Of a stretch of DNA of 39,814 bases, positions 6,001-33,519 are shown in pieces (within the stretch, counting starts at the first letter, position 1; each line of letters opens with the position of its first letter). Source of the stretch: a virus. The stretch is taken from positions 1 through 39,814 of the IMG/VR virus record IMGVR_UViG_3300032315_000542; one strand, given 5' to 3'. Both the position numbers and the translations under genes were made by a program. Below the pieces are notes generated by a model. That model was not told the origin of the DNA, ran no database searches, and was given only the letters and a program-made list of their open reading frames with translations.

Positions 6001-9000
6001 AACAACAGTGCCGTTGACTGAAACATATAGCTGACTATTCTGCGGATACATCGTGCAGGATACTGTACTATTGGTTAGGGTAATCCGAGTATTAGTAGAA
6101 CGTGAATTCTTCAATGCGATAGTGCTACCTGCAATATCTTGAATGTAATACGTTATGTAAGGACTAATACCGCTAGCACCGAAACTAGTGCCAGTAAACA
6201 TTACTGGCATGCCTACTTCTAATCCAGAAACACTATTGACTGTCAAGTAGTTACTAGCCACAGCCACTGAAGAAAGAACCTGTTTAGTATCTGCGGGGGT
6301 CCATGCTAGCTGGAATGTTTGTGGCTGATAAGAAACACTAGGGGTTTGTGTTTCGAAATTCTGTTCTGCTCTTTGGTAAACATATGCTGCTCCCCAATTG
6401 TCAATTGACGAGTTTAGGATAACCTTAGGTGCGCCTACAACAAGCACACTGCCATCATAGTTTGTTGCAAGGGATTGACCAAATGCGCTAGCTGAGGTGA
6501 GACCCAAATCAGTGCAGTCAATAGTAGTAACAAGTTTATATGTTGTCTGAGTAGCTGTACCGAATACGGCTCCGTCGGGAAGTAATGCACTTCCGCTGTT
6601 TAGTGCGATGAATGAAATTCCTACTTTATTATCAAGTGCTCCGGCAGCTACCCAATTCGTATCGCCTAATGTAGTGATAGTATAAGTTTCACCTATTTTA
6701 AGGTACCCAGCATTGATTAGAATGTTGTCTCTGCGATAAACTGAAATGATTCCTGAATCAGGAATACCGAGATACATCCAATTGGCATCACTAGACATTG
6801 CGATGTCATTTACTGATCCGCTGATTGGTGACTGATATTTCACCATCTGCTGAGAAAGAATGCTATCGTTGATCACATAGATGTAAGTTTTGTTTGTACC
6901 TGATGTAGGATCATTTGCCGCGATAGCGTAGACGTTCTGTGCGTATGCGATAGATGACCCAAACCCTGAACTTACAGCAGGACTATATGGAGTTACAGTC
7001 TGATATAGTTGTGAGGTATTACTCATCGGATCATAAGAATATCTGTAGACTACGTTACTTCCAGCATCACCGATCAAGTATCCTGCTTGATCAGTGTACG
7101 CGACAGCAGAACCGTATGTAGACGATTGCGGAATCTGGAACTGTGTCTCATATTGGTAATTGATACTCTTGCGATAGACTGCCCAATCACCGTCGCTATT
7201 CTCATCAACCCAAACAGTATTTTTAATGAATTCGTTTTCAGTTAGGTCTAGTGCTTCGATTTCGCTAGGGGTTGCTACACGCTGAGATTCAAATGCAAAT
7301 CCCAATCCTCTGCCCTGTACAGTGGATTGATTGGCACCAACAACAGAAAGATTTATGATGACTTCATACATGTTAACAATGTCTGTCACAATGTAGTATC
7401 CATCAATGTTTGCTGCAAAGTTAATGATTGCCATAGGATCTAGTCTGTTTAGTCCGTGCGGAGCACTGAACGTGACTGTAGCAGTTTGATTTTGATTATT
7501 CCTAACCTGAGTTACTTGACCAATAGTGTTCCATCTGAAGACGCCCCACTTCTCTTTGAAGTTTGCCATCCAAAGATACTCACCCACATAGAAATTCTGA
7601 ATAGGAATAATCGTGCCATTGATGTTGGTTGCCGTAGGTAAGCCTGAATAGAAGTACGTTGACATCTTAACGTCATTGAAGTTGACGTAGCCTGCACTTG
7701 GGTATAGACCTTGAGTCGCATATGTCGTAGTTGTACTAAGAATGTTAGGTGAGCTAATTGCAGTACCGTAGTTGAACAGGTTAGAAAGAGGAATTTCTTG
7801 CATCGCACCTTCGGTGCTGCCGCCGTTAGTCAAGCTGACGATAGCAGGATCGCCTGTCATGTTCGTTTGGTTGATTCTGAATTCTACGAAGTTTTCATTT
7901 AGGACGCCGCCGTACTCACCTGACTTAATTGCCCAATTTTCATAGATGTCGTATTGAATTCCACCTTGAGGAAGATTAGCTCCCTTAAATGCACTTAGTG
8001 CATTAAGGGTTCCCTTGTTCTTGATTAGATTCTTGTATACCTGAACCTGAGCAGTAGAAGTCAAGTCAATAAGTGCGAGATAGTCTCTTGGACGATAACC
8101 AATCAAAGAGAATGCAAGCAAGTCTGCATCCTTTTCTAGATTAGCCTTTTCTGCATTGTAATAAAGAGTGCTTTCATATGCACGAGTGCTTGGGTTGGCA
8201 AACAGTCCTTGCTGAATGTCACTATAATTTATGCGCTTCCATTTAGTCTCATCGAACACATTAGATGGCTCAATGATTGTTAATGAAGTCCAATACTTAT
8301 TCTTGTATTTTACAATTTCATTCTTAGTGTACTTTACAAAGGAATTGAATTCTTGGATATCTGATTGATTAACAATGAATCCCCACGCATTAACTGTACC
8401 GTTCCATTCAGCAGTCTTTTGACCGCGCACATAGATTCTATTTTGGCGTAGTCCAGTGGTCAAGTTGTAAATGATATCGTTGAACAATGTCGTGTTGTCG
8501 AACACGATGCCGTGTTCAAAGTTACTAAAGTTGAACTGTGCATATGCCATTGCATCGCCGGTGTTAAGCGTGTGCATATGGAACAGCGTATCATCACGAT
8601 TGACGCAAAGATCATTCAGTCTAATTGGATACAAGTTCTGATTTAGAACAAAGTTCTGTTGCTGGACTGTCAATGGTTGAACGAGCGCACTAGGCTGGTT
8701 AACATCCAATGTTGTTGCCGCAGGGTTTAGCGTGATGACACTGCCATTTGACCATCCTGTTTGTATCCAGTACAGGAATTCATAGACCATTTGTGTCCAA
8801 GTAATAGGAATGCCATTCTGAACATCATTAAACATCATGCCTTTTGATTCTAGGTATTTACCGTAGGAGAGCAAGAATTGAGCAACGTCCTGCGGTGTGT
8901 AAAACTTAGTGCCATACGGAACAAACGATATATCAGTAGTATAATTTACAGCAACCTTTACTGTTTGTTTTTCAAGAGAAATAGTAGTAAAATTACCATT

Positions 9001-12000
9001 AAAAGCCGGATCTAATATTTCAAAGTAAGCTATGTTCTGTGAGTTACCGTACACTGTCCAATAACCTTGGTTCTGTTGAACGATAACGCCACTGAACAGC
9101 AACCGATCGAACGGTTGATTATCATACAGCAATATTGAATAGCTCTCGTCTGGGATTAGTAACGAAGCATTAGTGCTAGTCGGTGTTGGCTTTTCCACAT
9201 AAAATTGCAGCATAGACTTGTCGCTGTAGCCAGCGAGACGATATACCAGTCTAACGTCTAGGTTATCTAGTGTTGTGGTAATTTCAGTAGTCGCGTCAAT
9301 GCCTTGTTGCTTCTCATAGTCAACAATCCAATTGATGTAACTAGTCTTTGCAGTGCCATCGCCGTAAACTTCTATGTTGCTAGGTACGAGATGGCTTCTG
9401 TCATTGAACAGGTACTGATTAAATTCTGCATTATACTTGTAGTTGTCTAGGTCTACGCAAAGATTATAGAACTCTGCTGGACGAGTTAATGCAAAAATTC
9501 TTGTTAGGTCGAACGGGAAGGTTGAGCTACGGCGATAGCTTAGCTCAGCAGGACCGTCATCTCCTACGACCCAATCTTTATTAAAAGTGCTTGGGTTGTA
9601 GTTACTGACTATTACTTTGAATGGTGACAGCAAGTCACCGTTCGAATTTACAGGAATGACAGCAGACAATCCCGGACGAGCTACTAGTGGATTGATGTAG
9701 GGCTCGCCGTTATTCCAGATCAAGCCTTGCTCTAGATCATTCCAGAGAATGCCGTTATCACTAGTGTACGGTGCCGGACCATAACGAGCAGTCCACCAAG
9801 TTGGCATGATAGTAAAGCCAAGCATTTCCCAAGGAGTTGTGTCTGGAGTAGTAGTGTCATAGTAATACTGATACACACCTCTCCAATAACCCTGAAGGAT
9901 AGGACTATTGTCTAACTTACTTGAAGAATTTGTATAGTTGTAAGTAAATTCATTTACTCTTGAGAAGTACTGTGTCTTGTAATCAATACGATTTTGACCA
10001 ATCCAGTTTAAGAACTGAGTTGAGTAAATTCTTAAGAATTCATCCCATGAATAAGTAGGAGTTCTAAAGAAGCCCGGAACAACCTCGTATCGTGTGATAG
10101 GTGTTTCAGTGCTTAGTTTGAGATTGTTATAAACTCTCTTTTCAAATTCTAGCAATGCCTGGTCTCTGAAGTCAACAAGAATATCAAATTCAGGAATATA
10201 ATCACCATACAACTTAGTATATGAACCGTCATGTCCAAGAATGAAATATGTTGGGATCAAATAGTTAGAGTCAAGGATTACTTGAGGAATGTACTTAGGA
10301 TAGATGCCTAACTTAGTTGGTGTATTAGGAACATATGATCCATAAGTCTGATTGTATTCTCTAATAGTTACTATGTCTCCGTCTTGCATTGGAATAGTGA
10401 TAGTAAGGGTAGGTGAATCGGTACTAACCACATACTCTGTACCAATAAGTAGTTGCTTTTCAACAATGATGTTGTCAACCGCACGACTTAGGTATACAAG
10501 AACACCATTGTAGTTTGCAGTCTCAAAGTTGTACACATGACTTAGTGGATATTGTGATCTATCTAAATCGTTGTTGAATACATAGGAGTTGCTAATGTAC
10601 GAAGACTTGTTTGGCAACATGTCTGACCAAAAGAACGCATTGATCTGGCTCTTCGCCGCCGTGATTTGATCCAGTGCTTCATCTAGAATTTCTGCCGGAG
10701 TATAACGCTGCTCGTATGGAGTGTTCTGAACTGTATCTACCAACAGTTGCTTGTACTTGACATATTCACGAGAGTTGAATTGCAACGCATTAAACAGATT
10801 GTACTGTGGATTACGTAGGAATGTTCCTGGTAGCACGAGTGACGCACTATTTTGAATGATCTTGGTGCCATATGGATTTAAGTTGCCGCAGTCTCTGAAG
10901 TTGTTTGAACCAAAGATTGTTCCTGTTGTATTAGGAGCATTGATGAAAATATCTTGATACTGTGTTCTAATGTCACCAGTGTTTACTGTAGTTAGGTCTG
11001 TATTAAGTGGGTTGTTACTTAGGTTGAGAGGAACTTGATAGTATCCAACCTTGCTGACTTGATCACTAAGCAATAGTACCTGCACCAGTGTGTTTTCGTC
11101 GATTTGTGTGAACAATTGTATTGTAGTCGAGTTGGTGCCGATCTCTACCGAGTAATCAGAAGGTTCTTGATATACGTTATTGATATATACCTTAACTCTT
11201 GGCCAACCCGTCTCATTTGGTTGAAGTGCTGGTAGTGCTGCGATGTCGCATATAAAAATATACGCCGGTGCAGTCACCGAGAAATCAAAATTAAAGATTT
11301 GATATTGCTGACTAGGTGCAATCGCGGTTTCCCAACCTAACAATCTAGTGTATGAAACATCAGATGTTATATTGTAAACATAACCAGTGTTAACTTTTTG
11401 ATTGAATGGGTTACCGCCGGAAACGTATGAGAATGTATCAGAGTTCAGGGAGACATCAAAACTAACGTCACCTTGGTTAGATACGGAACTATAACGAATT
11501 GGGAAGCCCAACACCGGGTCCTTTGTGCCTGACCCTAACGTGTAGTTGAATAATTTACAACCAGTAAAGGTCGTACTTGGGTATACGATAGGATCACTGA
11601 AGCTGATACCGTTTCCATCTAAAATGTCGAATTCAGGAGCTTGGTTTAGTTGTGTCTTCTGTTGTGATTGCATCCAGTCGATGCCGTCGAACCAATAACT
11701 CAAGCCGGAGTTTGCGTAACCGCGTGTTATTACAGTTTGTGTATCAGGAGCAACGATACCGTCTTCTGCGACAGTGAGAGTAATAACCGAACCAACTGGG
11801 AGCAGTGTGGCAGTTCCGGTGCCTGTTCCGACTACTTCGCATACAATGATGTCGCCTACCTGATATGTTACACTGGTTGTACCAGCTACTACATTCCAAT
11901 CAGTAGTTCCCAATGTATTAATTTGGTAAGAGCTTCCTACTACAAAAGTTGGAGGATCACTCGGAGAATGAACAGTTGAGAATGCCGCTACATAAATCTT

Positions 12001-14586
12001 GCTTCGTACAGTAACATCATTGTCAGCAGCAAAGATTACACGGGCGCCGGGGAACAATCCATAATTGTTAACAGTGGTATCGCTGGCATAAAGAATTGCA
12101 GTAGATGTTCCTGCAATGTTTTGCGGAATAGCCCAGCTTACTGTTAAAGTTAATGTATCGGTTCCTGAAATGTTAGTGATTTGTGTATTGGCTGGAAGCA
12201 ACGCAGTAGAGTCTGCGATGAACATAAAATTCGTTAGTGTGCCGGTCAATGCAGCAGCGGCTACTGTTATAGTAGTTGAGGTTGCTAATGGTACTGCGGC
12301 TCCGTTGCCGGTGCCTGCGGCTTCACACACGAAGATGCTGCCCAACGCATAGTTGTTATCAACCGTGCCTGCTACTACGTTCCAGTCTGTAGTTGTACCG
12401 TATGTGCTAATCTGATATGTTAAGCCCGGCACAAACGAACCTGCTGCTATCGGAGTCACCGAAGTAGCATTGATGGTTGCAGTTGCAGTAGAGTACGTCT
12501 GCACATCAGGGTAATATGCGAGTGATCCAGGAACAGTTGACAATGCGTCAGTGTTGGTAGTGTCAATGAAGTCTACCGGATCTTTACCTACTGCACCGGA
12601 ATTGAATAATTTTAAGTTTGGATAAAACTCAATGATAGGTCTTGCGGCTTTATGAGAAATATTCGCATATGTTGTTACAATAGTAGGATCGTCGTTGTAT
12701 CTTGCAGTTGCAGTGATTACATCGATGTGGAACCAGCGGTTACTTCTTGCCCATGCATTCTTATTAATTGAGTTACGTGCAATGGTAACATAGTCAGCTT
12801 GAACAGGAATATCAAGGCTGATATCCCAATTTCCGATATCCCAATCCAAGATGTCCCATGCGATGTATTCGCCTTGGCTAAACTCTTCCGGCACTACGAG
12901 TGTTTCAACGGGTACCAGTTCAATTGAGGTTCCTACGCCTTGGACATAGTATTCACCGGTAAGGTAGCTTGTAGGGATTACATCGCCGTTGAAACTTACC
13001 TTTAGTCCATTAGTAAACACCACACCGTTAGGAGATGTATAATTTGCGCGACCCAAAATTTGTGTCTCGACATTGATAGTATTATTCAAGTTATCTTCGA
13101 TGAGGCGAATAACACCTACTTTATTTGGATTATCTCCGTCTTGGTAGTACAGTACATCAAGGGGTGCGCTGATATACGGAATCAGTTCTAGGTTGTTAGA
13201 AGCGTTAAGATAGAAAGGTATGTTATTCCATTCTGTGCCGTAAACTGGCAAGATGCGAGTGTCTGCGGGAATTGCCCCGTCTGGAATCAATCTTATGATT
13301 GGATCAGCCGGATCGCCGATATACGTAACTACAAAGAATGTGTTTCCTACATTTACACTAAACCCGTCTTCATACAGACCTTGGTTGACATTAACTGTCA
13401 TTGTACCTGAAGCCGCAGTCAAGGTGATTGGGTCACCGTTCAATGCAGTTGAAATAGTGAATGAATTTGAGTTCGGAATACTTTGAATGAAGTAAACTTG
13501 TCCTAGGTTAATGCCACCAAAGCCAACTCCACTAAATGTTACGGTGCCTCCCACGATCAATCCGCTTGTACTACCTGAAGCTAAAGTAAATGCGCTAGTG
13601 TCGCAGCTACTAACAGTGAGTGTGATAGGTGCAACTAAATCAGGAGCATTAGTATCATATTCAGTTTCATCAAAGTAAGAAGAAATGTATGCAATTGGTT
13701 GCGGGGTGTTATAGAAAGCAACACGCAAGCCTTGCAACGATGTGATTCCATCGATACCCTCAAATGAGTTTACGAATTGGCCGTTGATGTCATCAAAGGA
13801 GCTAGTGCTAATCACATCGGTGTTAACTGTAGTAGGGAAAATGTATTCATCTTGTGCGTTACGTTGCGGAACTTCAAAAGTAACAAGACCCGAAGTGGCG
13901 CCGTTGTTGACTACACCGTATACATCGCGCACTGATTGATTTGGTTGTGTCGGGCTATATCCGGAAACACCAGGAGCGCCCTGAATCCAAAACGGGGAAG
14001 ACTGGTCTACTTGAAAAGTATACGTGCCGCCTCTCAATAATGTGATTGCAGGATTAGTATTTGATCTGGTAGAACCTTCTCTAACGATACTATACGTGTT
14101 AGTGTTGTCGGTAACAACAAATGCTTCTCTTGAGAATACAGTCGATGCTGCGACCTGAACGGAAGGAGGCCCTTCCGGCAACCAATAATACTGATTGAAA
14201 TTGATGAGAGCGTCTAGATTGGTGAACGAATCCCAGGAATAGAATTGACTCTTAAACAATATATTATTGTTTTCAGTTATTCCGCCTTCCATCTTGAGCG
14301 CATCAATGATTCCAGGATAAGTGATGAAATCTTTAGCAGTAGACTCGTCTGGCTTAGTGAAAACAACACTAGGATCCAGCTGATAGTCGGCGCGAGTTTT
14401 AGTAGGTTCAGTAACGTATGCGTCTGTTGCATTGACACCGGTTCCAAATGTACTACCAACATAGCCTTGGATGTTTGCTACACTCGGTGGATTTACGAGT
14501 TGATCGAGGGTTGCTGCCAAAAACTGTGCGTTGGGAGGGGTTTGAAAAACCTCTGGAAGAAAATTAAGTGTTCTTACTCTAGCCAT
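1..14586 (-). CDS. Giant virion structural protein, baseplate-associated (C-terminus outside window)
   Basis: I read the frame codon by codon from ATG at 14586 to base 1: 4862 codons with no stop, so the protein exceeds 4800 residues and its end lies outside. It begins MARVRTLNFLPEVFQ, a start I associate with giant structural proteins of marine T4-like phages. It lies directly after gp6, where T4 has gp7, so it is probably a baseplate-wedge or peripheral tail protein; this is inferred from position. It is rich in beta-type sequence. A recurring module reads roughly YY[VI]..I followed by F[ST][IV]S (for example near 13480, 1935, 1600 and 700). Residues about 2463-2750 and 3055-3180 resemble FG-GAP beta-propeller blades (FGQSLATNYDGSVLVVGAP; YGEALDFNSNVVIVGSP). 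No Shine-Dalgarno is evident. Open frames on the opposite strand here are shadows. Confidence 0.93.
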   Translation of the reverse strand, partial: MARVRTLNFLPEVFQTPPNAQFLAATLDQLVNPPSVANIQGYVGSTFGTGVNATDAYVTEPTKTRADYQLDPSVVFTKPDESTAKDFITYPGIIDALKMEGGITENNNILFKSQFYSWDSFTNLDALINFNQYYWLPEGPPSVQVAASTVFSREAFVVTDNTNTYSIVREGSTRSNTNPAITLLRGGTYTFQVDQSSPFWIQGAPGVSGYSPTQPNQSVRDVYGVVNNGATSGLVTFEVPQRNAQDEYIFPTTVNTDVISTSSFDDINGQFVNSFEGIDGITSLQGLRVAFYNTPQPIAYISSYFDETEYDTNAPDLVAPITLTVSSCDTSAFTLASGSTSGLIVGGTVTFSGVGFGGINLGQVYFIQSIPNSNSFTISTALNGDPITLTAASGTMTVNVNQGLYEDGFSVNVGNTFFVVTYIGDPADPIIRLIPDGAIPADTRILPVYGTEWNNIPFYLNASNNLELIPYISAPLDVLYYQDGDNPNKVGVIRLIEDNLNNTINVETQILGRANYTSPNGVVFTNGLKVSFNGDVIPTSYLTGEYYVQGVGTSIELVPVETLVVPEEFSQGEYIAWDILDWDIGNWDISLDIPVQADYVTIARNSINKNAWARSNRWFHIDVITATARYNDDPTIVTTYANISHKAARPIIEFYPNLKLFNSGAVGKDPVDFIDTTNTDALSTVPGSLAYYPDVQTYSTATATINATSVTPIAAGSFVPGLTYQISTYGTTTDWNVVAGTVDNNYALGSIFVCEAAGTGNGAAVPLATSTTITVAAAALTGTLTNFMFIADSTALLPANTQITNISGTDTLTLTVSWAIPQNIAGTSTAILYASDTTVNNYGLFPGARVIFAADNDVTVRSKIYVAAFSTVHSPSDPPTFVVGSSYQINTLGTTDWNVVAGTTSVTYQVGDIIVCEVVGTGTGTATLLPVGSVITLTVAEDGIVAPDTQTVITRGYANSGLSYWFDGIDWMQSQQKTQLNQAPEFDILDGNGISFSDPIVYPSTTFTGCKLFNYTLGSGTKDPVLGFPIRYSSVSNQGDVSFDVSLNSDTFSYVSGGNPFNQKVNTGYVYNITSDVSYTRLLGWETAIAPSQQYQIFNFDFSVTAPAYIFICDIAALPALQPNETGWPRVKVYINNVYQEPSDYSVEIGTNSTTIQLFTQIDENTLVQVLLLSDQVSKVGYYQVPLNLSNNPLNTDLTTVNTGDIRTQYQDIFINAPNTTGTIFGSNNFRDCGNLNPYGTKIIQNSASLVLPGTFLRNPQYNLFNALQFNSREYVKYKQLLVDTVQNTPYEQRYTPAEILDEALDQITAAKSQINAFFWSDMLPNKSSYISNSYVFNNDLDRSQYPLSHVYNFETANYNGVLVYLSRAVDNIIVEKQLLIGTEYVVSTDSPTLTITIPMQDGDIVTIREYNQTYGSYVPNTPTKLGIYPKYIPQVILDSNYLIPTYFILGHDGSYTKLYGDYIPEFDILVDFRDQALLEFEKRVYNNLKLSTETPITRYEVVPGFFRTPTYSWDEFLRIYSTQFLNWIGQNRIDYKTQYFSRVNEFTYNYTNSSSKLDNSPILQGYWRGVYQYYYDTTTPDTTPWEMLGFTIMPTWWTARYGPAPYTSDNGILWNDLEQGLIWNNGEPYINPLVARPGLSAVIPVNSNGDLLSPFKVIVSNYNPSTFNKDWVVGDDGPAELSYRRSSTFPFDLTRIFALTRPAEFYNLCVDLDNYKYNAEFNQYLFNDRSHLVPSNIEVYGDGTAKTSYINWIVDYEKQQGIDATTEITTTLDNLDVRLVYRLAGYSDKSMLQFYVEKPTPTSTNASLLIPDESYSILLYDNQPFDRLLFSGVIVQQNQGYWTVYGNSQNIAYFEILDPAFNGNFTTISLEKQTVKVAVNYTTDISFVPYGTKFYTPQDVAQFLLSYGKYLESKGMMFNDVQNGIPITWTQMVYEFLYWIQTGWSNGSVITLNPAATTLDVNQPSALVQPLTVQQQNFVLNQNLYPIRLNDLCVNRDDTLFHMHTLNTGDAMAYAQFNFSNFEHGIVFDNTTLFNDIIYNLTTGLRQNRIYVRGQKTAEWNGTVNAWGFIVNQSDIQEFNSFVKYTKNEIVKYKNKYWTSLTIIEPSNVFDETKWKRINYSDIQQGLFANPSTRAYESTLYYNAEKANLEKDADLLAFSLIGYRPRDYLALIDLTSTAQVQVYKNLIKNKGTLNALSAFKGANLPQGGIQYDIYENWAIKSGEYGGVLNENFVEFRINQTNMTGDPAIVSLTNGGSTEGAMQEIPLSNLFNYGTAISSPNILSTTTTYATQGLYPSAGYVNFNDVKMSTYFYSGLPTATNINGTIIPIQNFYVGEYLWMANFKEKWGVFRWNTIGQVTQVRNNQNQTATVTFSAPHGLNRLDPMAIINFAANIDGYYIVTDIVNMYEVIINLSVVGANQSTVQGRGLGFAFESQRVATPSEIEALDLTENEFIKNTVWVDENSDGDWAVYRKSINYQYETQFQIPQSSTYGSAVAYTDQAGYLIGDAGSNVVYRYSYDPMSNTSQLYQTVTPYSPAVSSGFGSSIAYAQNVYAIAANDPTSGTNKTYIYVINDSILSQQMVKYQSPISGSVNDIAMSSDANWMYLGIPDSGIISVYRRDNILINAGYLKIGETYTITTLGDTNWVAAGALDNKVGISFIALNSGSALLPDGAVFGTATQTTYKLVTTIDCTDLGLTSASAFGQSLATNYDGSVLVVGAPKVILNSSIDNWGAAYVYQRAEQNFETQTPSVSYQPQTFQLAWTPADTKQVLSSVAVASNYLTVNSVSGLEVGMPVMFTGTSFGASGISPYITYYIQDIAGSTIALKNSRSTNTRITLTNSTVSCTMYPQNSQLYVSVNGTVVQDNNYALGEGTLYYTGNLRAGDIVSVSGNEFFMVQELNSASTERSDIYYGTSVATTRYGSDVLVGSPYEIDAEGREGAVYGYINGGAKYGVVIGTSPCNLLGTRTLLINGYAAVLPAGDATMVANAITETRITNVRATATADNKIIIQLINNNLAGVNEKLVLTVFDNSVLDELGIQLYANTQVVKCPHGFGPTAFGNNIKTNQSNGIVVSAPVGTRYTGTFFDFTDDENLNNDTVFDNNATRFVDSYPNAGAVYMFEYLSNNNESVSSPGSWTYAQSVNDTAIDYGFNPQYGEALDFNSNVVIVGSPNFQPTTIGGKAVVYLNETGVNDWAVYRQSSAVVDINRIQNTQLFGAITNETLVNLDYIDPLQNKILGAARENLDFVTGVDPATYNVSYNTESGPVWGAAHVGRLWFDTSNVRWVNYHQNDVVYNSRYWGQVFPGSDVAVYSWISSFIPPQNYQGPGVPYDVNQYVVNNVINSSNVVVPMYYFWVRNTNVIFSQTGKTLSDSVVQSYIANPRTSGISYMAPLLPNTFGIYNSGAYINANDTVFHVGFSNSQSEDTIHNEYSLIRANFQDDFLPGFPNINATHVEGGIHGDIGQQYIYGAPYSLYAKLLDSLAGCTPSGTVVPDPFLPAAVQSGVLVRPSQSFFYARLDAIKNYLIYANDIIINYPIFELREELSFLFTTGEFYNTPDYWSYVDWWAPGYNSGVKPSVQVSVFAELSTLNVAVGTVARVVQNISGRWEVYIQTAIGVWNRIGLQNGTLQFKDDLWNYAAGKLGWDGNFFDTNSFDLYPSEETRSIVRALNEQIYVSDLLIHRNKSLILLFEYIQAETIESQNYLPWLNKTSLADVSHVIRELIPYEVYKTDDQTFLSGYVNETKPYHVVIKDFLFKYTKTDVFEGDVTDFDVPAAYNSTDQQFISPQLVYTIDTSGIYEYNAQDPIWQTNAYSQWFQNFGLSVTGQPGFPITTLNSFLTRGTRYILVDNAHGFPANGMITIGTEQIGYSYVDRSLNIVGGLSRGINQTTPVDHIPGEQIFMDLPAVILLDGGRGYTNPPKVTAVIDTTKYPVPRELAVFEAVLGTDSVVQINVVNPGSGYAVLPTLEIEPALTVYFSNTDINSRFNTINIYAPDLRTGDLVRYRAGVGAGAGRLADGQWYYINVLESTTISVIGLYSTYSNAINDQDRIALFDNGTSTGMSLNLGAKASIITSSAPIRENIITLKFDRTTYGSKIVDWQADSFYGAYFAGSYYSVDTTAASSGVSLESTHPDINTLLASADGATFEITDVQNQETLTWSSLVRNVEETIDEGSGFPDEDRYLIRLVLSDSTEPNASGSTIGFYVGMPIKFTGGLAGTGITSGTTYYVAKIINETDFSIEDANGTIIGLNDIIVEVPVLCYTGQVVDTAIVSVNYPGILTATATTASNNAITVPLTALGTGGTNGFYPGLTVFFTGTDAQFADFENKIIANEVYYINTIIDQQTFTISEFKNPTFTNVLQNIADTSLVLPITATVTATIGGASDIVVLDSNANFNFNDPVIFNTMVIAGSEVSTFGNIVSGTVYYVSEVVDGSPTQIKISATRSGVNFDLSTVVAASDTSAVATNQSNVLPLANATGELTMNVALPVSPGQVNGQEFRFYETSGQYINKSGAISNLIETAVYATIAAPVNKVAVESTTNFYTNLPIQFEVATGGLSTGTTYYVLEYSGKSSGGSTLPNLEVQVEVTLSTGNQLVCKAGTDTSDLYLNMPITFSGTGLGGLIISDQYFVKSIDDPTHFTVSELPGGTTTALSDDAGEMVGTGYPYITVSASPGGSPVSLSTSTTPSALDQVNLTNPAFDISYILGGYRAIIADGGSGFAINNVITISGTEVEGLSPKNDIIITVSEVDANGVITRVSPAGSPPNIELSYYLKVISATQFEVYENSLMTIPVSGKTFPYVGLTSTTATAATASDDRITVGDSSVFNLNDSVVFTGNIFASEITLGQVYYIKSKPTSTTVTLSTDPAG

Positions 14587-14591
14587 CTATA

Positions 14592-14599
14592 TATTTATC
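14592..14599 (-). promoter_or_regulatory. Late-promoter-like motif before the giant gene
   Basis: The minus strand reads GATAAATA, one base off the T4 late -10 element TATAAATA. It lies in the 14-base gap between the gp6 stop and the giant-gene ATG. Only 5 bases separate it from the ATG, so a transcript starting here would be nearly leaderless. The same extended string GATAAATATA stands before gp6. Confidence 0.45.
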
Positions 14600-14600
14600 T

Positions 14601-27271: not shown

Positions 27272-28171
27272 GTGATAACAAAATCAAAGAGACCTGTTAA
27301 TTATCTAAACAACAAAGACATTCTTAAAGAAATTCACACGAGCAAGAACTCCTACTGTTACTTTACTGAACCGGAATACAATCGATATGATCTTATCATC
27401 GACATGCCCGATTCTCCCATAGAAACCAGTCTAGATTTTGCAATAAAGCCAGAACAAATCCAAGCAGCTAAACAGACTAGAGCAGTCTGGCTTTCACTAC
27501 AGTCAGAAGAAAAGATTCTTCCAGAATCAATAAAAACTGAAGATTTAATCTTCAGAGTCATGACTTGGGACCATATCCCAGTTGCTCAAAAGCAGCCTCG
27601 TAAGACTACAAAGAAGAAAACAGCCAAAGACATCATCGTTTTTGAAGATGACGAGTTGGAAGATTTTTCTGATTTAGAAGACAAGGCCACAAAAGCCGAA
27701 GTTGACGACATGGTTCACGTTAGAGTGAACTTCCCTCCCTTCCAGCACTTCAAGCTAGACGAAACCAACACATTTAGGTGTGTAGGCAAGTCGCATTGGG
27801 TTGACGGAATTGAGAATGGGCATTTCTCTAAGGATCACGGAAACATCACTAACAAACTAGCTCGTATGTACATGATGCTTTGCGAAAAATATGCAATGAG
27901 GTTCAACTGGCGCGGCTACACATATAATGACGAGATGCGTAACTCTGCTATTCTACAGTTGACCTATGTTGGCCTTCGATTCAACGAGGCAAAGTCTTCT
28001 AATCCGTTCGCATACTATACAGCAGCTATCACTAATAGCTTCTGTCGAGTACTAAACTCAGAAAAGCGAACCCAAAACATCCGCGATGACATTCTTGAAA
28101 TGAACGGGCTTAACCCTTCGTTTACAAGACAAATGCGTGAGGTAAAACCTAAACAAGTTAAGGTTACCTAA
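27272..28171 (+). CDS. 55: Late-transcription sigma factor gp55 with N-terminal extension
   Basis: 299 residues. Residues about 150-290 match gp55, the T4-type sigma factor that directs host RNA polymerase to TATAAATA late promoters: FPPFQHFKL, NWRGYTYNDEM, NPFAYYTAAITNSFCRVLN, then QNIRDDILEMNGLNPSFTRQ. T4 gp55 is 185 residues. Here residues 1-150 are extra: a folded-looking part (YLNNKDILKEIHTSKNSYCY to LIFRVMTWDHIP, residues 11-103), a basic stretch KTTKKKTAK (111-119) and an acidic linker (125-137). The start is GTG at 27272 with AAAGGA about 6 bases upstream; no ATG occurs before residue 45. It heads the plus-strand operon and probably drives the structural genes around it. Confidence 0.9.
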   Translation: MITKSKRPVNYLNNKDILKEIHTSKNSYCYFTEPEYNRYDLIIDMPDSPIETSLDFAIKPEQIQAAKQTRAVWLSLQSEEKILPESIKTEDLIFRVMTWDHIPVAQKQPRKTTKKKTAKDIIVFEDDELEDFSDLEDKATKAEVDDMVHVRVNFPPFQHFKLDETNTFRCVGKSHWVDGIENGHFSKDHGNITNKLARMYMMLCEKYAMRFNWRGYTYNDEMRNSAILQLTYVGLRFNEAKSSNPFAYYTAAITNSFCRVLNSEKRTQNIRDDILEMNGLNPSFTRQMREVKPKQVKVT

Positions 28172-28175
28172 CTGA

Positions 28176-28211
28176 TTGCGATTTGCAACTAAGGATAATA
28201 TAATATAAATA
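28176..28211 (+). promoter_or_regulatory. Overlapping sigma70-like and late promoter elements before gp47
   Basis: TTGCGA (28176-28181), 17 bases, then a perfect TATAAT (28199-28204) match an early-type promoter. TATAAATA (28204-28211), a perfect T4 late box, overlaps it and reaches the A of the gp47 ATG. AAGGA at 28191-28195 is rather far (15 bases) from the ATG to be a good ribosome binding site. Transcripts from either element would start at or inside the coding region, so the real use is uncertain. Confidence 0.4.
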
Positions 28212-29227
28212 TGGCACAACTATTCAAGAAGGCAGCAGTCTTCACGGACATTCATTTTGGGTTAAAGAGTAACAGCATACAACACAATACTGATTGTATT
28301 GAGTTTGTAGATTGGTTCATCACTAAAGCTAAGGCTGAGGGATGTGAGACATGTTTGTTCTTAGGTGACTACAATCACCATAGATCAAGTATAAACATGC
28401 ACACCCTTCAATTTGGCCTTCGTGCGTTGGAAAAACTGAACGACGCATTTGAACGAGTATATTTTATTCCCGGTAACCACGATCTCTATTATCGTGATCG
28501 CAGAGACATTCACTCAGTAGAATGGGCAAATCATCTACCTAATGTTACCATCGTCAATGATTGGTTTCAGCAAGACGATGTAGTCATTGCTCCTTGGTTA
28601 GTCGGTGACGATTATAAGAAGCTACCCAACATGAAGGGCAAGTACTTGTTTGCCCATCTAGAACTGCCGCATTTTTATATGAATGCGATGATACAGATGC
28701 CCGATCACGGAGAGATCAACTCAGAATACGTTTCAGGATTCGAGTGGGTCTTCTCTGGTCACTTTCACAAGCGTCAATGCCGCAAGAACATCTGGTACAT
28801 CGGTAACGCTTTCCCTCATAACTATGCAGATGCAGGCGACGATGCCAGAGGCATGATGATTCTAGACTGGGGGTGTGAACCTGAATTTCATGCATGGCCG
28901 AATCAACCTATCTTTCGGGTCTACAAACTAAGTGCTATCTTAGATAACCCAGAAGGTCTTCTTCTTCCTAAGTCTAGTGTCAGAGTACATCTTGACATTG
29001 ATATTTCATATGAAGAAGCTAATTTTATTCGTGAAACACTAATCCCACAATATGGACTAAGAGAAATGTCTTTGATTCCTATCAAGAACACAGAGTTCGC
29101 ACAGGATCTTGCTCCCGGCGAGGTGAACTTTGAAAGCGTAGACCAAATCGTCATCGATCAGATCACCAAGATCGAAAGCGATTTCTACGATCCTAAGCTA
29201 TTACTAGAGATTTACCGTAACCTATGA
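28211..29227 (+). CDS. 47: Recombination endonuclease subunit gp47 (Mre11-like)
   Basis: 338 residues, equal to T4 gp47 (339). It is a calcineurin-like metallophosphoesterase with all metal-binding motifs visible: D13-x-H15 (FTDIHFG), G52-D53 (FLGDYNHH), G88-N89-H90-D91 (IPGNHD), H149 (FAHLELP) and G183-H184-F-H186 (SGHFHKR). With gp46 it forms the Mre11/Rad50-type complex that resects DNA ends for recombination-dependent replication. Its stop overlaps the gp46 start as ATGA, so the two are translationally coupled, as expected for subunits made in matched amounts. Confidence 0.96.
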   Translation: MAQLFKKAAVFTDIHFGLKSNSIQHNTDCIEFVDWFITKAKAEGCETCLFLGDYNHHRSSINMHTLQFGLRALEKLNDAFERVYFIPGNHDLYYRDRRDIHSVEWANHLPNVTIVNDWFQQDDVVIAPWLVGDDYKKLPNMKGKYLFAHLELPHFYMNAMIQMPDHGEINSEYVSGFEWVFSGHFHKRQCRKNIWYIGNAFPHNYADAGDDARGMMILDWGCEPEFHAWPNQPIFRVYKLSAILDNPEGLLLPKSSVRVHLDIDISYEEANFIRETLIPQYGLREMSLIPIKNTEFAQDLAPGEVNFESVDQIVIDQITKIESDFYDPKLLLEIYRNL

Positions 29228-31302
29228 GTATCGTCCTCAAGAATATCACCCTCCGTAACTTCCTGTCAATTGGTGCAGTAACACAAGCTGTCAACTTCGA
29301 TAGCAAAGAACTTACGCTTATCCTAGGTGAAAACCTAGACTTAGGCGGGGACGGTTCTCGCAATGGTACCGGAAAGACTTCGCTCATGCAAGCTCTTTCT
29401 TATGCTGCATTTGATGCCCCCATCAATAAGATTCGCAAGGATAACCTAATCAATCGTACCAACGGTAAGGGTATGATGGTCACGCTAGAGTATTCTTCTA
29501 AGGGCGTTGACTATAAGATTGAACGAGGTCGTCGTCCAAACACTCTTAGGTTCTATGTCAACGGAGTTGAACAGGCTGATGACAAGGATACTGCTCAAGG
29601 AGAGAACAAAGATACGCAAAAAGAAATTGAGCGTACCCTGGGTATGTCACATGATATGTTTAAGCATATCGTTGCATTGAACACCTATACTGAACCGTTT
29701 CTTTCATTGGGTGCCGGTGAGCAGCGCAAGATCATTGAGCAGTTGCTCGGTATTACTTTGCTTTCAGAGAAAGCAGAAACAATCAAAACAAAAATCAAGT
29801 CTAACAAAGAAACGATTGAGCAAGAGCAATTCAAAGTTAAGACAATTCAAGAAGCTAACAAGAGAGTCGAAGAACAGATCGAGAATCTTCGGCGCCGTCA
29901 GCGTTTATGGAATGCCAAGCACAACGAAGACCTCAACAGGCTTGTCAGTGATTACGATGAGCTAAGCAAGATTGACATCGTTGCTGAACTTAAAGCTCAC
30001 CAAGATTTGACGATCTATAACGAAAAGAAGAAAAAGCAAGAACGTTACGAAGCTATCCTAGCTCGTCAAACTGCTTGGAAGCAGAAACTTGACAGTGACG
30101 TTGCATCATTGCAGGCTCAATATAATACCCTAAGTCATATTGATATCACTTCTGAACTTCAATCTCACGTTGATCTTAAGGTATATGAAGCCAAAAAGCT
30201 AGAGCTTGCAAACACAACCAAAACTGTTGCAGGACTTGAAGCTTCATTGAAGAAGGATCAAGCACTTGTTGTGAAACTTGAACAAGAAATCAAGACACTT
30301 GAAGATAACAAGTGTTACACTTGCGGACAAGATTTCCATGATGATAATCACACTCATGTAATTAACAGCAAGCATAAACTTCTTGCTGATGCAGTATGTG
30401 ATCTTGCCCAAACCCAAAACGATTTAGAAAAAAATAAAAATAATATTTTCGTTTTGGGCGAGAAGCCAACAACATACTATAGAACGGAAACAGAAGCAAT
30501 CAAACATAGTTCCGAACTTGAAAGATTGCAACAGAATATTGAAGCAAAGAGAAACGAAGATGATCCTTATGCTGAACAGTTGATCGAGAATTCTTGCCTA
30601 ATCGTTGGCCCTATGCCTGTAACTCATTATGACACCGAAGCAGAAGCAATCGAACATCGTAGTGTTGTATCAAGCTTGTTAAAGCAGATCGAGAAGAAGG
30701 CAGAAGATGTTGATCCATATGTTGATCAAATCAGCGAGATGGAAGCCAATGCCCTACAGGCAATTGACTTTGAAATCGTTAATGAACTGTCAAAGTTAGG
30801 TGACCACTTAAAGTTCTTGCTTGACTTGCTCACTAGCAAGGATAGCTTCGTTCGCAAGAAGATCATTGATCAGAACTTGTCATATCTTAACGCAAGACTG
30901 ACTCACTATCTTGACAAGATTGGTCTTCCACACACAGTCGTGTTTATGAATGATCTTTCAGTTGAAATCACTGAGTTAGGGCGTGAACTAGATTTTGACA
31001 ACTTGTCTCGCGGTGAACGTAATCGTCTCATCCTTGGTCTGTCGTTTGCATTCAGAGATGTTTGGGAAAATCTATACTTCCCGATCAACACTCTATTCAT
31101 TGACGAACTCATTGATAGCGGTCTTGATAGCATCGGGGTTGAGAACGCAATGGCAATTCTAAAAGATATGTCACGTAGACGTAGTAAATCTATATGGCTC
31201 GTCAGTCACCGAGAAGAACTTGCAGGACGCGTTCCTAGCGTTCTCAAGGTGATTAAAGAAAACGGGTTTACTAGTTACAATACTACGACAGATATCACAT
31301 AA
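29224..31302 (+). CDS. 46: Recombination endonuclease subunit gp46 (Rad50-like ATPase)
   Basis: 692 residues, longer than T4 gp46 (560), with longer coiled-coil arms. Walker A is G44-x4-G-x-GKT (GSRNGTGKTS, K51). Two long coiled coils flank a zinc hook C364-Y-T-C367. The ABC signature is LSRGERNR (S595-G597), Walker B is TLFIDELIDSGLD (D627-E628) and the switch histidine is H662 (WLVSHREE). It is the SMC-like ATPase partner of gp47 in end resection and origin-independent replication. The start overlaps the gp47 stop. The arms contain a loosely repeated pattern (AELKAHQDLTIYNEKKKKQ / SELQSHVDLKVYEAKKLEL), suggesting internal duplication of a coiled-coil segment. Confidence 0.96.
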   Translation: MSIVLKNITLRNFLSIGAVTQAVNFDSKELTLILGENLDLGGDGSRNGTGKTSLMQALSYAAFDAPINKIRKDNLINRTNGKGMMVTLEYSSKGVDYKIERGRRPNTLRFYVNGVEQADDKDTAQGENKDTQKEIERTLGMSHDMFKHIVALNTYTEPFLSLGAGEQRKIIEQLLGITLLSEKAETIKTKIKSNKETIEQEQFKVKTIQEANKRVEEQIENLRRRQRLWNAKHNEDLNRLVSDYDELSKIDIVAELKAHQDLTIYNEKKKKQERYEAILARQTAWKQKLDSDVASLQAQYNTLSHIDITSELQSHVDLKVYEAKKLELANTTKTVAGLEASLKKDQALVVKLEQEIKTLEDNKCYTCGQDFHDDNHTHVINSKHKLLADAVCDLAQTQNDLEKNKNNIFVLGEKPTTYYRTETEAIKHSSELERLQQNIEAKRNEDDPYAEQLIENSCLIVGPMPVTHYDTEAEAIEHRSVVSSLLKQIEKKAEDVDPYVDQISEMEANALQAIDFEIVNELSKLGDHLKFLLDLLTSKDSFVRKKIIDQNLSYLNARLTHYLDKIGLPHTVVFMNDLSVEITELGRELDFDNLSRGERNRLILGLSFAFRDVWENLYFPINTLFIDELIDSGLDSIGVENAMAILKDMSRRRSKSIWLVSHREELAGRVPSVLKVIKENGFTSYNTTTDIT

Positions 31303-31341: not shown

Positions 31342-31905
31342 ATGACATCACCTAGCAAAGCCAAAGGCTCATCATTCGAACGAGAAGTTGCAACCTTCTT
31401 GTCAAAGACATATAATGAAAGTTTTATCAGGGCTCCCGGCTCAGGTGCATACATTGGCGGCAAGAATCAATCTCGCAAGCAATATTTGGATGAAGGTCAG
31501 ATTCGTAGCTTCAAGGGAGATATCGTCCCGGGAGTTACCTTCACTAAATTTAACGCAGAATGTAAGTCATATGCAGACTTCCCCTTTCATCTTCTTTTAT
31601 CCGGGGACTGTAAACAAATCGACAGTTGGCTAGACCAGCTGATGGCTGTAGCAGAAACCGATGATTGCAATGTGCTATTCATGAAGTTTAATCGTAAAGG
31701 CAAGTATGTTGCTGTACAAGCAAAATGTACTTGGGTTACGGACAACTTCATTTACTACAGTTCCTCTAAGTTTGGGGACTGGATCATCATTGAATTTCAG
31801 CACTTCTTCAAGCTCAACAAAGACCTTCTTAAAGCTTACTCAGGCTCACCTATCGCAAACATTGACACCGCGTCTACAGCTAACCTACTAACACTCAACA
31901 CCTAA
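31342..31905 (+). CDS. Holliday-junction-resolvase-like PD-(D/E)XK nuclease
   Basis: 187 residues. The N-terminus KGSSFEREVATFL with E13/E15, then RAPGSGAYIGGKN, KGDIVPG (D60) and AECKSY (E73-x-K75) reproduce the Glu / Asp / Glu-x-Lys layout of the PD-(D/E)XK fold as in archaeal Hjc-type resolvases, with the typical R-x-PGSG loop. A role in resolving recombination or packaging intermediates is inferred from this pattern and from the neighbouring gp46/gp47. It follows gp46 by 39 bases. The ribosome binding site is weak (AGAAAG about 15 bases upstream). The C-terminal 60 residues show no feature I can name. Confidence 0.7.
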   Translation: MTSPSKAKGSSFEREVATFLSKTYNESFIRAPGSGAYIGGKNQSRKQYLDEGQIRSFKGDIVPGVTFTKFNAECKSYADFPFHLLLSGDCKQIDSWLDQLMAVAETDDCNVLFMKFNRKGKYVAVQAKCTWVTDNFIYYSSSKFGDWIIIEFQHFFKLNKDLLKAYSGSPIANIDTASTANLLTLNT

Positions 31906-31924
31906 ACAAAAACACAGAACCCTA

Positions 31925-32419
31925 CATAGATGTTTGGTCGGGATTGCTCGACTCTCCTTGAGGACGCATGGAATACTGCGAACGGATTCTGGAGCCGAAG
32001 GTGCATTCCTTCAAAATTGCATAGGTGTTTACATCTATGGAATACCGATAGGGCCCTCGTTAGGTTAAGCGAACCCTAAATGAGTCTGTGTCGTACTCTG
32101 TCTTGAGAACACAGAACATGCGTTGCCGAGGAATCGAAAGATAGCCTCACTACAGTCCCAGTAAACTTTACAGGGCAACCGGTAGCGTCAATCAGCATCA
32201 AAAGCTAGGTTGACGGGGAATAGACAGCAAGGGTGACGGGCCATGGCAATGTCCTAGACCATTGGTAGTGCTAAGTAGCACTACCATGGATTCTGAACCG
32301 GCAAATATCATTCAGTAAGTCTATCTTAAACATTACCATTAAAGAGAATGAAAAAGAATATACCGAAACGAACGAAGTGAGTAAGGTATAAGTTGTCCGA
32401 AGGACAACTCTGAATGATA
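31925..32419 (+). ncRNA. Large structured non-coding RNA candidate (about 500 nt)
   Basis: No convincing protein frame lies between 31906 and 32470, but many stems do. Domain 1 is closed by CATAGATGT (31925-31933) with ACATCTATG (32031-32039). Then come 32060-32079 (TTAGG/CCTAA), TCTGTGT/ACACAGA (32085-32115) and GTTGCC/GGCAAC (32122-32179), the last enclosing GAGG/CCTC with a GAAA tetraloop. CCGGT/ACCGG (32179-32301) encloses GTCAA/TTGAC and a perfect 10-bp hairpin, TGGTAGTGCT/AGCACTACCA. TATCATTCAG/CTGAATGATA (32306-32419) encloses TATACC/GGTATA and AGTTGTCC/GGACAACT, which abut as if stacked. The plus strand is favoured by the upstream plus operon and by the minus terminator just beyond it. 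I cannot assign it to a known class. Confidence 0.7.
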
Positions 32420-32434
32420 GCTAGGATAGAAGCC

Positions 32435-32469
32435 AAAAAAAAGAGAGAACTAAATGAATAGTTCCCTCT
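32435..32469 (-). terminator. Rho-independent terminator of the gp26-like transcript
   Basis: Read on the minus strand, AGAGGGAACTA and TAGTTCTCTCT form an 11-position stem with one mismatch and a 6-base loop, followed by a run of T (complement of A 32435-32442). It stands two bases after the stop of the frameshift extension. It also shields the structured RNA region from minus-strand transcription. Confidence 0.88.
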
Positions 32470-32470
32470 A

Positions 32471-32701
32471 TTAGAAGAATGGCATGTTTGACTGCTTTGT
32501 GACCTCTAAATTCGATTCAATTATCTCATTTATAGCTGTTCGTTCGAAACTAGACATGTTTAAGATGTCTTCGTAAGAAGCGCCCCCTCGCATATACCAG
32601 GCCATAGAGAGAGCACCTTTTTTAATCCCTTCTACGTCTTTTTCATACTGCTCTAACAGCTTCTGAATTTCCTCGGGGGTAGAACGTAGAAGCCTTAATC
32701 G
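32471..32701 (-). CDS. -1 frameshift extension of the gp26-like protein (76 residues)
   Basis: An open frame runs from CGA at 32701 to TAA at 32471, in the -1 frame relative to the gp26-like gene. It has no ATG, GTG or TTG before residue 33 (GALSMAWYMRGG), so independent translation would lose nearly half of it. Entered from the slippery site it adds 76 residues, from RLRLLRSTPEEIQ to a QSNMPFF end, giving a fusion of about 349 residues. The mostly charged, helical content, position beside the tape measure gene and fused-product design resemble the gpG/gpGT tail assembly chaperones of lambda and P2 E/E'. A short independent protein from the internal ATG remains possible. The terminator follows at once. 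Confidence 0.72.
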   Translation of the reverse strand, partial: RLRLLRSTPEEIQKLLEQYEKDVEGIKKGALSMAWYMRGGASYEDILNMSSFERTAINEIIESNLEVTKQSNMPFF

Positions 32702-32707
32702 AAAAAA
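32658..32707 (-). promoter_or_regulatory. Programmed -1 ribosomal frameshift site
   Basis: On the minus strand the last codons of the gp26-like gene read GAT TTT TTC GAT TAA. This places T TTT TTC (32707-32701) in the exact X XXY YYZ phase needed for a -1 slip. Six bases later GGCTTCT (32694-32688) can pair with AGAAGCT (32664-32658), a 7-bp stem with a 23-base loop, at the usual distance for a stimulatory structure. The loop contains GAGGAA, which could act as an internal Shine-Dalgarno-like stimulator but lies downstream of the slip site. Confidence 0.75.
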
Positions 32708-33519
32708 TCAACAGGACTCAAAGTGAATGCTTGATCATATTCATGTTCACATGAATCACACTTTAGGTGCAATGGTTTGATCTCAGTCTCTACTCTTAGC
32801 TTTGCGTTGTAATCTCTAACTAAAATGAAGTTATTTCTATCACAGTTTCTAAGGAAGTCTAGAATAAACTCTTTGTCGTCTACTTCAGTAGTAGGAGTTG
32901 TGATGTGTTCAATAGACTTACTTAGCAACTCCATAGTTAGGAGTGTGATCTTTTCTAATGCATTTTTGCTAATTAGGTTGCGTTCTTCTTCGGAACTAAT
33001 ACTTTCTAAAGTTACAAAGATGCGTTGAATCTCGAATTGTGCAAGGGCAGCTTCGTTCATGTCTCGGTAACGGAGTGGCTTAAACTTGATGCTCAGATCA
33101 CCGATAACCAACGGGGTTTGGTAATCACCTGATTTAAGCGTGTTCAGAATAGGAAGTAAATTTACACCGTAGGTGCGAACTTCTTCGCACTTAGGACAAG
33201 CGGTCTCAATCTCAAGAGTATCTCCTGACGATGCAGCTTTGATAGCAATCAAAACGGCATCCATGTCGTTGCTACTAATCTGCCAAGGATCCTTGATAGC
33301 AGGAATGCAACTCTTTACTAGTTCTGCTAGTGCAGTTCCGTTGAACAGGGCATCGGGGGTTCTAGATGTGACTTCATCGATAGCAGTCATGGGGAAAACG
33401 GGTAGTTCCCCGTTTTCCGGCATGTCAATCATATCAGGAGAGTAGTCTTTGCCCCCTGAAGGCAGTTTGATGTAGACAGCTGGTCTTCTAAAATACTGTC
33501 TTAGCGGGTTATTTTCCAT
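32695..33519 (-). CDS. 26: gp26-family baseplate hub/tail assembly protein (T4_baseplate family)
   Basis: 274 residues with the family pattern VYIKLPSGGKDYSP, NGELPVFPMTAIDE, TPDALFNGTA, SCIPAIKDPW, then a Cys pair. Two CxxC motifs (C108-x2-C111 in CPKCEEV, C254-x2-C257 in CDSCEHEY) could bind one zinc ion. The family name (T4 base plate protein, gp26-like) comes from memory of the pattern. In T4, gp26 belongs to the 26-51-27-28-29 hub and tape-measure cluster; here it is divergent from the tape-measure gene. ATG at 33519 is preceded by GAGGAAAAAGT, a good ribosome binding site. Its end is a -1 frameshift site, so this protein is probably made in two forms, short (274) and extended (349). Confidence 0.8.
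   Translation of the reverse strand: MENNPLRQYFRRPAVYIKLPSGGKDYSPDMIDMPENGELPVFPMTAIDEVTSRTPDALFNGTALAELVKSCIPAIKDPWQISSNDMDAVLIAIKAASSGDTLEIETACPKCEEVRTYGVNLLPILNTLKSGDYQTPLVIGDLSIKFKPLRYRDMNEAALAQFEIQRIFVTLESISSEEERNLISKNALEKITLLTMELLSKSIEHITTPTTEVDDKEFILDFLRNCDRNNFILVRDYNAKLRVETEIKPLHLKCDSCEHEYDQAFTLSPVDFFD

Follow-up and report, generated by a model that had tools for sequence, protein, structure and literature searches.

GOLLD and ROOL are the closest described counterparts of the RNA reported here. Both are large, ornate phage RNAs of unknown function that often lie near tRNA islands and form nanocages; the solved example of ROOL has 659 nt and multiple pseudoknots, and GOLLD has been found in aquatic metagenomes (PMC12286853). 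The only non-coding RNAs mentioned in a 2026 review of jumbo phages are those of phiKZ (PMC13282480).

The window analysed here is an IMG/VR virus record of 39 814 bases. Positions 31922–32411 of its plus strand encode a conserved RNA structure of about 490 nt (table 1). A four-way junction lies in its core, and it comprises three covarying pseudoknots and about sixteen stems. The structure belongs to a family that is absent from Rfam and occurs in a wide range of uncultivated T4-like phages, many of them jumbo phages. The window RNA resembles GOLLD in being large, ornate and phage-borne, but it is shorter (GOLLD often exceeds 800 nt), occupies a different genomic place and has neither a match to the GOLLD model nor adjacent tRNAs. 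It shares with ROOL a similar size, multiple pseudoknots and a phage origin; unlike ROOL, it has no model match and no tRNA island, and it keeps a fixed place between the SbcC/resolvase genes and a baseplate hub gene. OLE is likewise a large, ornate RNA of similar length, but it is found in bacterial genomes, and its model does not match the phage-borne window RNA, whose core motif (type I, see below) is absent from GTDB genomes.

None of the 4227 Rfam families matched the window, even at E = 10 with lax filters, and none reached its gathering score in 18 type I and six type II loci; the models giving no match to the RNA include those of RNase P, group I and group II introns, OLE and HEARO. 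ARAGORN detected no tmRNA in the window, nor in any of 40 related loci. tRNA genes are missing from the same sequences; their lack in the window had been observed in an earlier note made from the window sequence. Because it fails both the model match and the tRNA context, the RNA is not a member of GOLLD or ROOL. Its size, ornateness and phage origin would suit a diverged form of these or of another known large RNA, but the Rfam result and the lack of nearby tRNAs make such an origin very improbable. The class appears to be new by sequence and fold, within the already existing broad heading of large phage RNAs of unknown function. A search for literature on the RNA or its locus, with preprints and most subscription journals outside its coverage, returned no matching description.

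Table 1. Features of the RNA locus and its surroundings in the window. Percentages are cells paired.
Feature	Position	Strand	Evidence
Late sigma factor gene	27272–28171	+	
SbcD and SbcC genes (gp47/gp46-like)	28211–31302	+	
PDDEXK/RusA-like resolvase gene, neighbour 5' of the RNA	31342–31905	+	
GACACCnnGTC element, within 3' end of resolvase gene	31864–31874	+	
Conserved structured RNA (type I), stems P0–P12	31922–32411	+	63-sequence full-length alignment A3 and pair counts
P0 hairpin	31936–31953	+	76%; two-sided changes in 6/6 pairs
5' domain, P1 (CUCC/GGAG) closing variable inner stem P1b	31954–31994	+	P1 100%, P1b 77%
P2 hairpin (32020–25/32034–39)	32020–32039	+	93%; two-sided changes in 6/6 pairs
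Core junction: invariant ACCG/CGGU helix P5 around P3, P4 and P6	32044–32183	+	
P3	32049–78	+	99.7%
P4	32081–118	+	99.6%
P6	32122–179	+	96.3%
P7 hairpin, within P6	32128–148	+	79%
Pseudoknot PK1, CUGUC (32098–102) with GACAG (32223–227)	32098–32227	+	96.8%; two-sided changes in 5/5 pairs; blind scan
Pseudoknot PK2, UCCC (32156–159) with GGGA (32216–219)	32156–32219	+	98.3%; two-sided changes in 3/4 pairs; blind scan
Pseudoknot PK3, CU (32166–167) with AG (32184–185)	32166–32185	+	99.2%; two-sided changes in 2/2 pairs; blind scan
P8 hairpin	32187–32214	+	95%; two-sided changes in 10/10 pairs
Repeat A (CCAUGGCAA)	32241–32249	+	Letter-for-letter co-variation with repeat B
P9 hairpin GGUAGUGC...GCACUACC, sequence-conserved	32264–32285	+	94.5%
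Repeat B (CCGGCAA)	32298–32304	+	Co-varies with repeat A
P11 stem, loop GAAACGAACGAAGUGAGUAA	32359–32390	+	45–63% in A3; recognisable by eye in the majority of rows
P12 terminal hairpin	32391–32409	+	95–99%; two-sided changes in 7/8 pairs
Hairpin with T-run, loop carrying the AAATGAATAGTT motif, itself recurrent 3' of the RNA	32442–32469	−	
T4-type baseplate hub gene, constant neighbour of types I and II	32695–33519	−	

The RNA lies in a gap (31906–32470) between two convergent gene sets. Inspection of the ORFs of this gap revealed small ORFs and no plausible gene, which bears out its description in the earlier note as gene-free. The RNA starts about 20 nt past the resolvase stop codon and the baseplate gene is convergent to it; no promoter of known type was found nearby. 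The conserved unit extends from about 31922, possibly from 31864, to about 32411, and thus measures about 490 bases, perhaps 600.

The gap almost certainly holds a real, conserved structured RNA gene. With a folding energy of −168.9 kcal/mol, the plus strand is far more stable than its shuffles (−133.2 ± 7.1; z = −5.1). When 90 sequences were scanned blindly for APC-corrected covariation, helix pairs ranked at the top, including long-range pairs that are absent from the nested consensus fold. A model of 95 pairs was counted on alignment A3, composed of 63 diverse full-length sequences: 92.8% of its cells are paired, compared with 78.1% in shuffles and 33–42% when the model is slid by 1–3 columns. 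Two-sided changes total 877, whereas shuffles give 269 ± 15 and the slid models 119–174; the A3 sequences are related, so that these pair counts are not independent events, and both the shuffled and the slid controls lie far below. At least one two-sided change occurs in 73 of the 95 pairs, and the core was checked separately on alignment A1 (42 sequences). The earlier note had proposed a large, ornate RNA of no known class and of GOLLD- or ROOL-like size, and this is supported by the Rfam search, by abundant homologues and by covariation that is overwhelming on most helices in the A3 pair counts.

In confident pairs G·U exceeds A·C by 127 to 30, which identifies the plus strand as the functional RNA strand. 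This ratio is not expected of a DNA element such as a replication origin, a role that the proximity of the SbcCD, resolvase and late sigma factor genes might otherwise evoke. The small ORFs of the gap could be taken for protein genes, but the indels seen in the alignment are not in multiples of three and the pseudoknots covary. A DNA element or small protein genes in place of an RNA are therefore scarcely credible.

The individual helices contribute unequally to this evidence. P5 is invariant and hence contributes no covariation; P9 shows little, because it is nearly invariant; P11 is variable and aligns poorly, and P12 has strong support. The secondary structure drawn in the earlier note was partly right, and it missed the three pseudoknots. 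Two of its perfect stems, 32263/32277 and 32391/32402, are conserved and correspond to P9 and P12. Two others are not: the 10-bp stem 32306/32410 is limited to the window and one almost identical contig, a further contig having 8 bp of it, and the 9-bp stem 31925/32031 has a 3' strand that is also used by the strongly covarying P2 and a 5' strand that is not kept in homologues. Helices abutting without an unpaired base had been remarked at two points. The junction 32390/32391 (P11/P12) recurs in many homologues, whereas 32409/32410 is not a conserved feature, because stem 32306/32410 is confined to the window and its closest contigs. The GAAA tetraloop is present in the window and, among homologues, only in close relatives.

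Many unpaired bases of the pseudoknotted core are invariant (ACUACA, UUUACAG, AACCGG). Such a core could belong to a ribozyme that cleaves or ligates RNA, but there is no likeness to any catalytic family of Rfam, and we consider this quite unlikely.

Repeats A (32241–49) and B (32298–304) flank hairpin P9. The column pair 32241 and 32298 is the ninth strongest of all pairs in the covariation scan and is never complementary. A and B of the same molecule have a similarity of 5.91, which drops to 5.24 ± 0.08 once the repeats are exchanged among molecules, a statistic partly confounded by relatedness. Between the close relatives L135 and L107, both repeats differ by T to G, with no matching change elsewhere in the RNA. 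A third strand pairing with the repeats was looked for within the RNA and none was found. The simplest reading of these sequence patterns is that one external partner reads both repeats.

Homologues were collected with the resolvase protein as bait, giving 61 IMG/VR viral loci; strict peptide patterns with the 274-aa baseplate protein as query found no loci. The RNA lies directly downstream of the resolvase gene in 60 of the 61, the sole exception (L038) being a contig that stops right after that gene. These homologues are 67–99.7% identical over the aligned parts. A scan of viral sequences with the core motif of this form, type I, matched at least 120 contigs, and contigs carrying the RNA reach 524 565 bases (approx. 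525 kb). The RNA is common to hundreds of uncultivated, often very large phages. The resolvase and baseplate genes flank type I in all 144 loci with data on both sides. The type I core motif has no match among 84 980 GTDB species genomes. In the cultured phages of INPHARED, blastn gave no meaningful match to the RNA, and short conserved pieces matched at chance level only.

The RNA can be better conserved than the neighbouring protein: in locus L062 the resolvase is 39% identical and the RNA core 76%. In this locus (L062:3080–4162) an ORF resembling a GIY-YIG homing endonuclease stands in place of the N-terminal half of the resolvase, which is broken or split; the RNA is intact.

The nearest isolates by protein are jumbo phages with 37–48% identity, namely PA5oct and Paride (Pseudomonas), Salicola SCTP-2 and Sinorhizobium Phosso; PA5oct, Paride and Phosso are the nearest cultured relatives by SbcC and resolvase. 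The syntenic gap of these three phages is likewise gene-poor beside the resolvase. Unlike the window, it gave no match to either covariance model (R1 and R2, described below), nor did SCTP-2, though the gaps look structured. Strong hairpins are present in the gaps of PA5oct (about 1.4 kb, L187:3490–4990) and Phosso (about 1.0 kb, L186:4000–4990), which may be the site of a further diverged RNA.

A second bait, the resolvase of a distant relative, yielded 77 loci, which were scored with the core model R1. It matched 27 of them at 101–159 bits. A second architecture, type II, is present in many of the remaining syntenic loci and is laid out as a P4-like helix with a CUCUGnGAAAAAG-type loop, an extra hairpin, and CCGUUG ... 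GUACMGnnCAACCGCCUCC. Pairing in two of the type II helices reaches 97.7%, and their two-sided changes number 115, compared with 30 in shuffles. The type II motif scan listed at least 120 matches, and model R2 matched all 49 loci tested from it. The type II pattern also has 10 matches in GTDB genomes, weak by R2 (best 26.5 bits) and probably due to chance. Type II itself has two sub-forms (L318, L353, L330, L355 and similar loci), one of which is distinguished by a shortened helix b together with a CGAGGUACCGGACAACCGCCUCUGUAA core.

There are several reasons to treat types I and II as one family: they occupy the same place beside the baseplate gene, share a GUUG...UACMGnnCAACCG core and a common upstream element, and never occur together on one of the fetched loci. 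Caution is required because the covariance models do not find each other convincingly; the best match of R1 on L200 has 13.1 bits, at the right spot, and other cross-matches are unconvincing.

The upstream element, GACACCnnGTC, is closely tied to the RNA. It occurs 142 times in 1.5 Mb of type I loci, and 136 of these copies lie a short way 5' of the RNA, mostly 67–120 nt from the CUCC strand of P1. Of 66 type II loci, 14 also have it, 210–534 nt upstream of the core. Where it lies inside the resolvase gene, GAC is retained in 90 of 95 cases; the G is constant at a third codon position and the other bases of the codon, as well as the amino acid, vary. This pattern indicates conservation as nucleic acid and not as protein. 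The element serves as a promoter or regulatory sequence, or else the RNA extends far enough 5' to include it. Sequences of the GATAAATGAAYAG type come after P12, on its 3' side, in 33 of 108 type I loci, against one occurrence elsewhere, and in the window this stretch is part of the minus-strand terminator hairpin. A GATAAATGAAYAGTTACGG-like sequence 3' of the RNA (window 32452–32463) is present in many type I loci and nearly absent elsewhere; it could be part of the RNA or of the convergent operon's terminator.

This terminator hairpin abutting the RNA, the start so close behind the resolvase stop codon, the convergent orientation of the baseplate gene and its constancy as a neighbour are all consistent with a cis element between the two operons: an elaborate 3' UTR, a two-way terminator, or an antisense brake on the resolvase and baseplate mRNAs. 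A terminator or 3' UTR, however, needs no 490 nt, no three pseudoknots and no invariant junction. The baseplate neighbour is kept by type II in 94 of 150 loci, the rest mostly having no data there, and in 56 of the 94 no resolvase was found. Type II is not a resolvase 3' UTR, because these 56 loci keep the baseplate neighbour without it; in L200, moreover, type II lies on the strand opposite the resolvase. A role in cis is unlikely, since the RNA keeps its position next to the baseplate gene in loci whose resolvase is elsewhere and since no terminator or UTR requires a fold of this kind, though for type I taken alone such a role may still hold.

We hold with moderate confidence that the RNA is a trans-acting structural RNA with its own transcription, a scaffold of an RNP or of an oligomer for phage development. 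It would be transcribed separately while the phage infects its host, would have a control element near 31864 and would work in trans through its folded structure. Its core P3–P8, with the pseudoknots, would form a compact body, and P9 together with the two matching single-stranded repeats would dock one partner twice. This partner could be a protein dimer, a second copy of the RNA or another nucleic acid, and the product would be an RNP or RNA oligomer serving the development of the phage.

Two further observations concern the surrounding genes. At its 3' end, the hub gene (minus strand, window 32471–32710) reads GAT TTT TTC GAT TAA, and after the slippery-looking T TTT TTC the −1 frame is open for 76 further codons. 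The TTTTTTC run is retained in 101 of 104 related loci. A programmed −1 frameshift, giving a longer hub protein, is likely from these sequences. On the minus strand of window positions 1–14600, about 14 kb are without a long listed ORF. Reassignment of stop codons was considered and rejected, as no altered code yields long frames there. The region appears to be one giant minus-strand gene running past the left end, and this huge frame leaving the window is the likely explanation for the missing ORFs.

To our knowledge, few bacterial or phage RNAs of such size and complexity exist. GOLLD, ROOL and OLE each became targets of structural work, and the support for the present structure is sufficient for the direct design of probing experiments, compensatory mutants and cryo-EM constructs. 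The family comprises two architectures or more, shows strong conservation among phages and keeps its place beside the baseplate hub gene; this conservation, sometimes above that of the neighbouring protein, suggests an important function. A wider reading, which we offer as tentative and rather doubtful, is that of a widespread jumbo-phage RNA machine with a novel core fold, in which one trans partner would evolve together with the two matching recognition sites flanking P9, and specificity would change from one close relative to another. As a ribozyme, guide or RNP scaffold, the RNA would then be a factor that the phage needs for its assembly or protection. The genomes of uncultivated jumbo phages thus contain large RNAs with no entry in Rfam.
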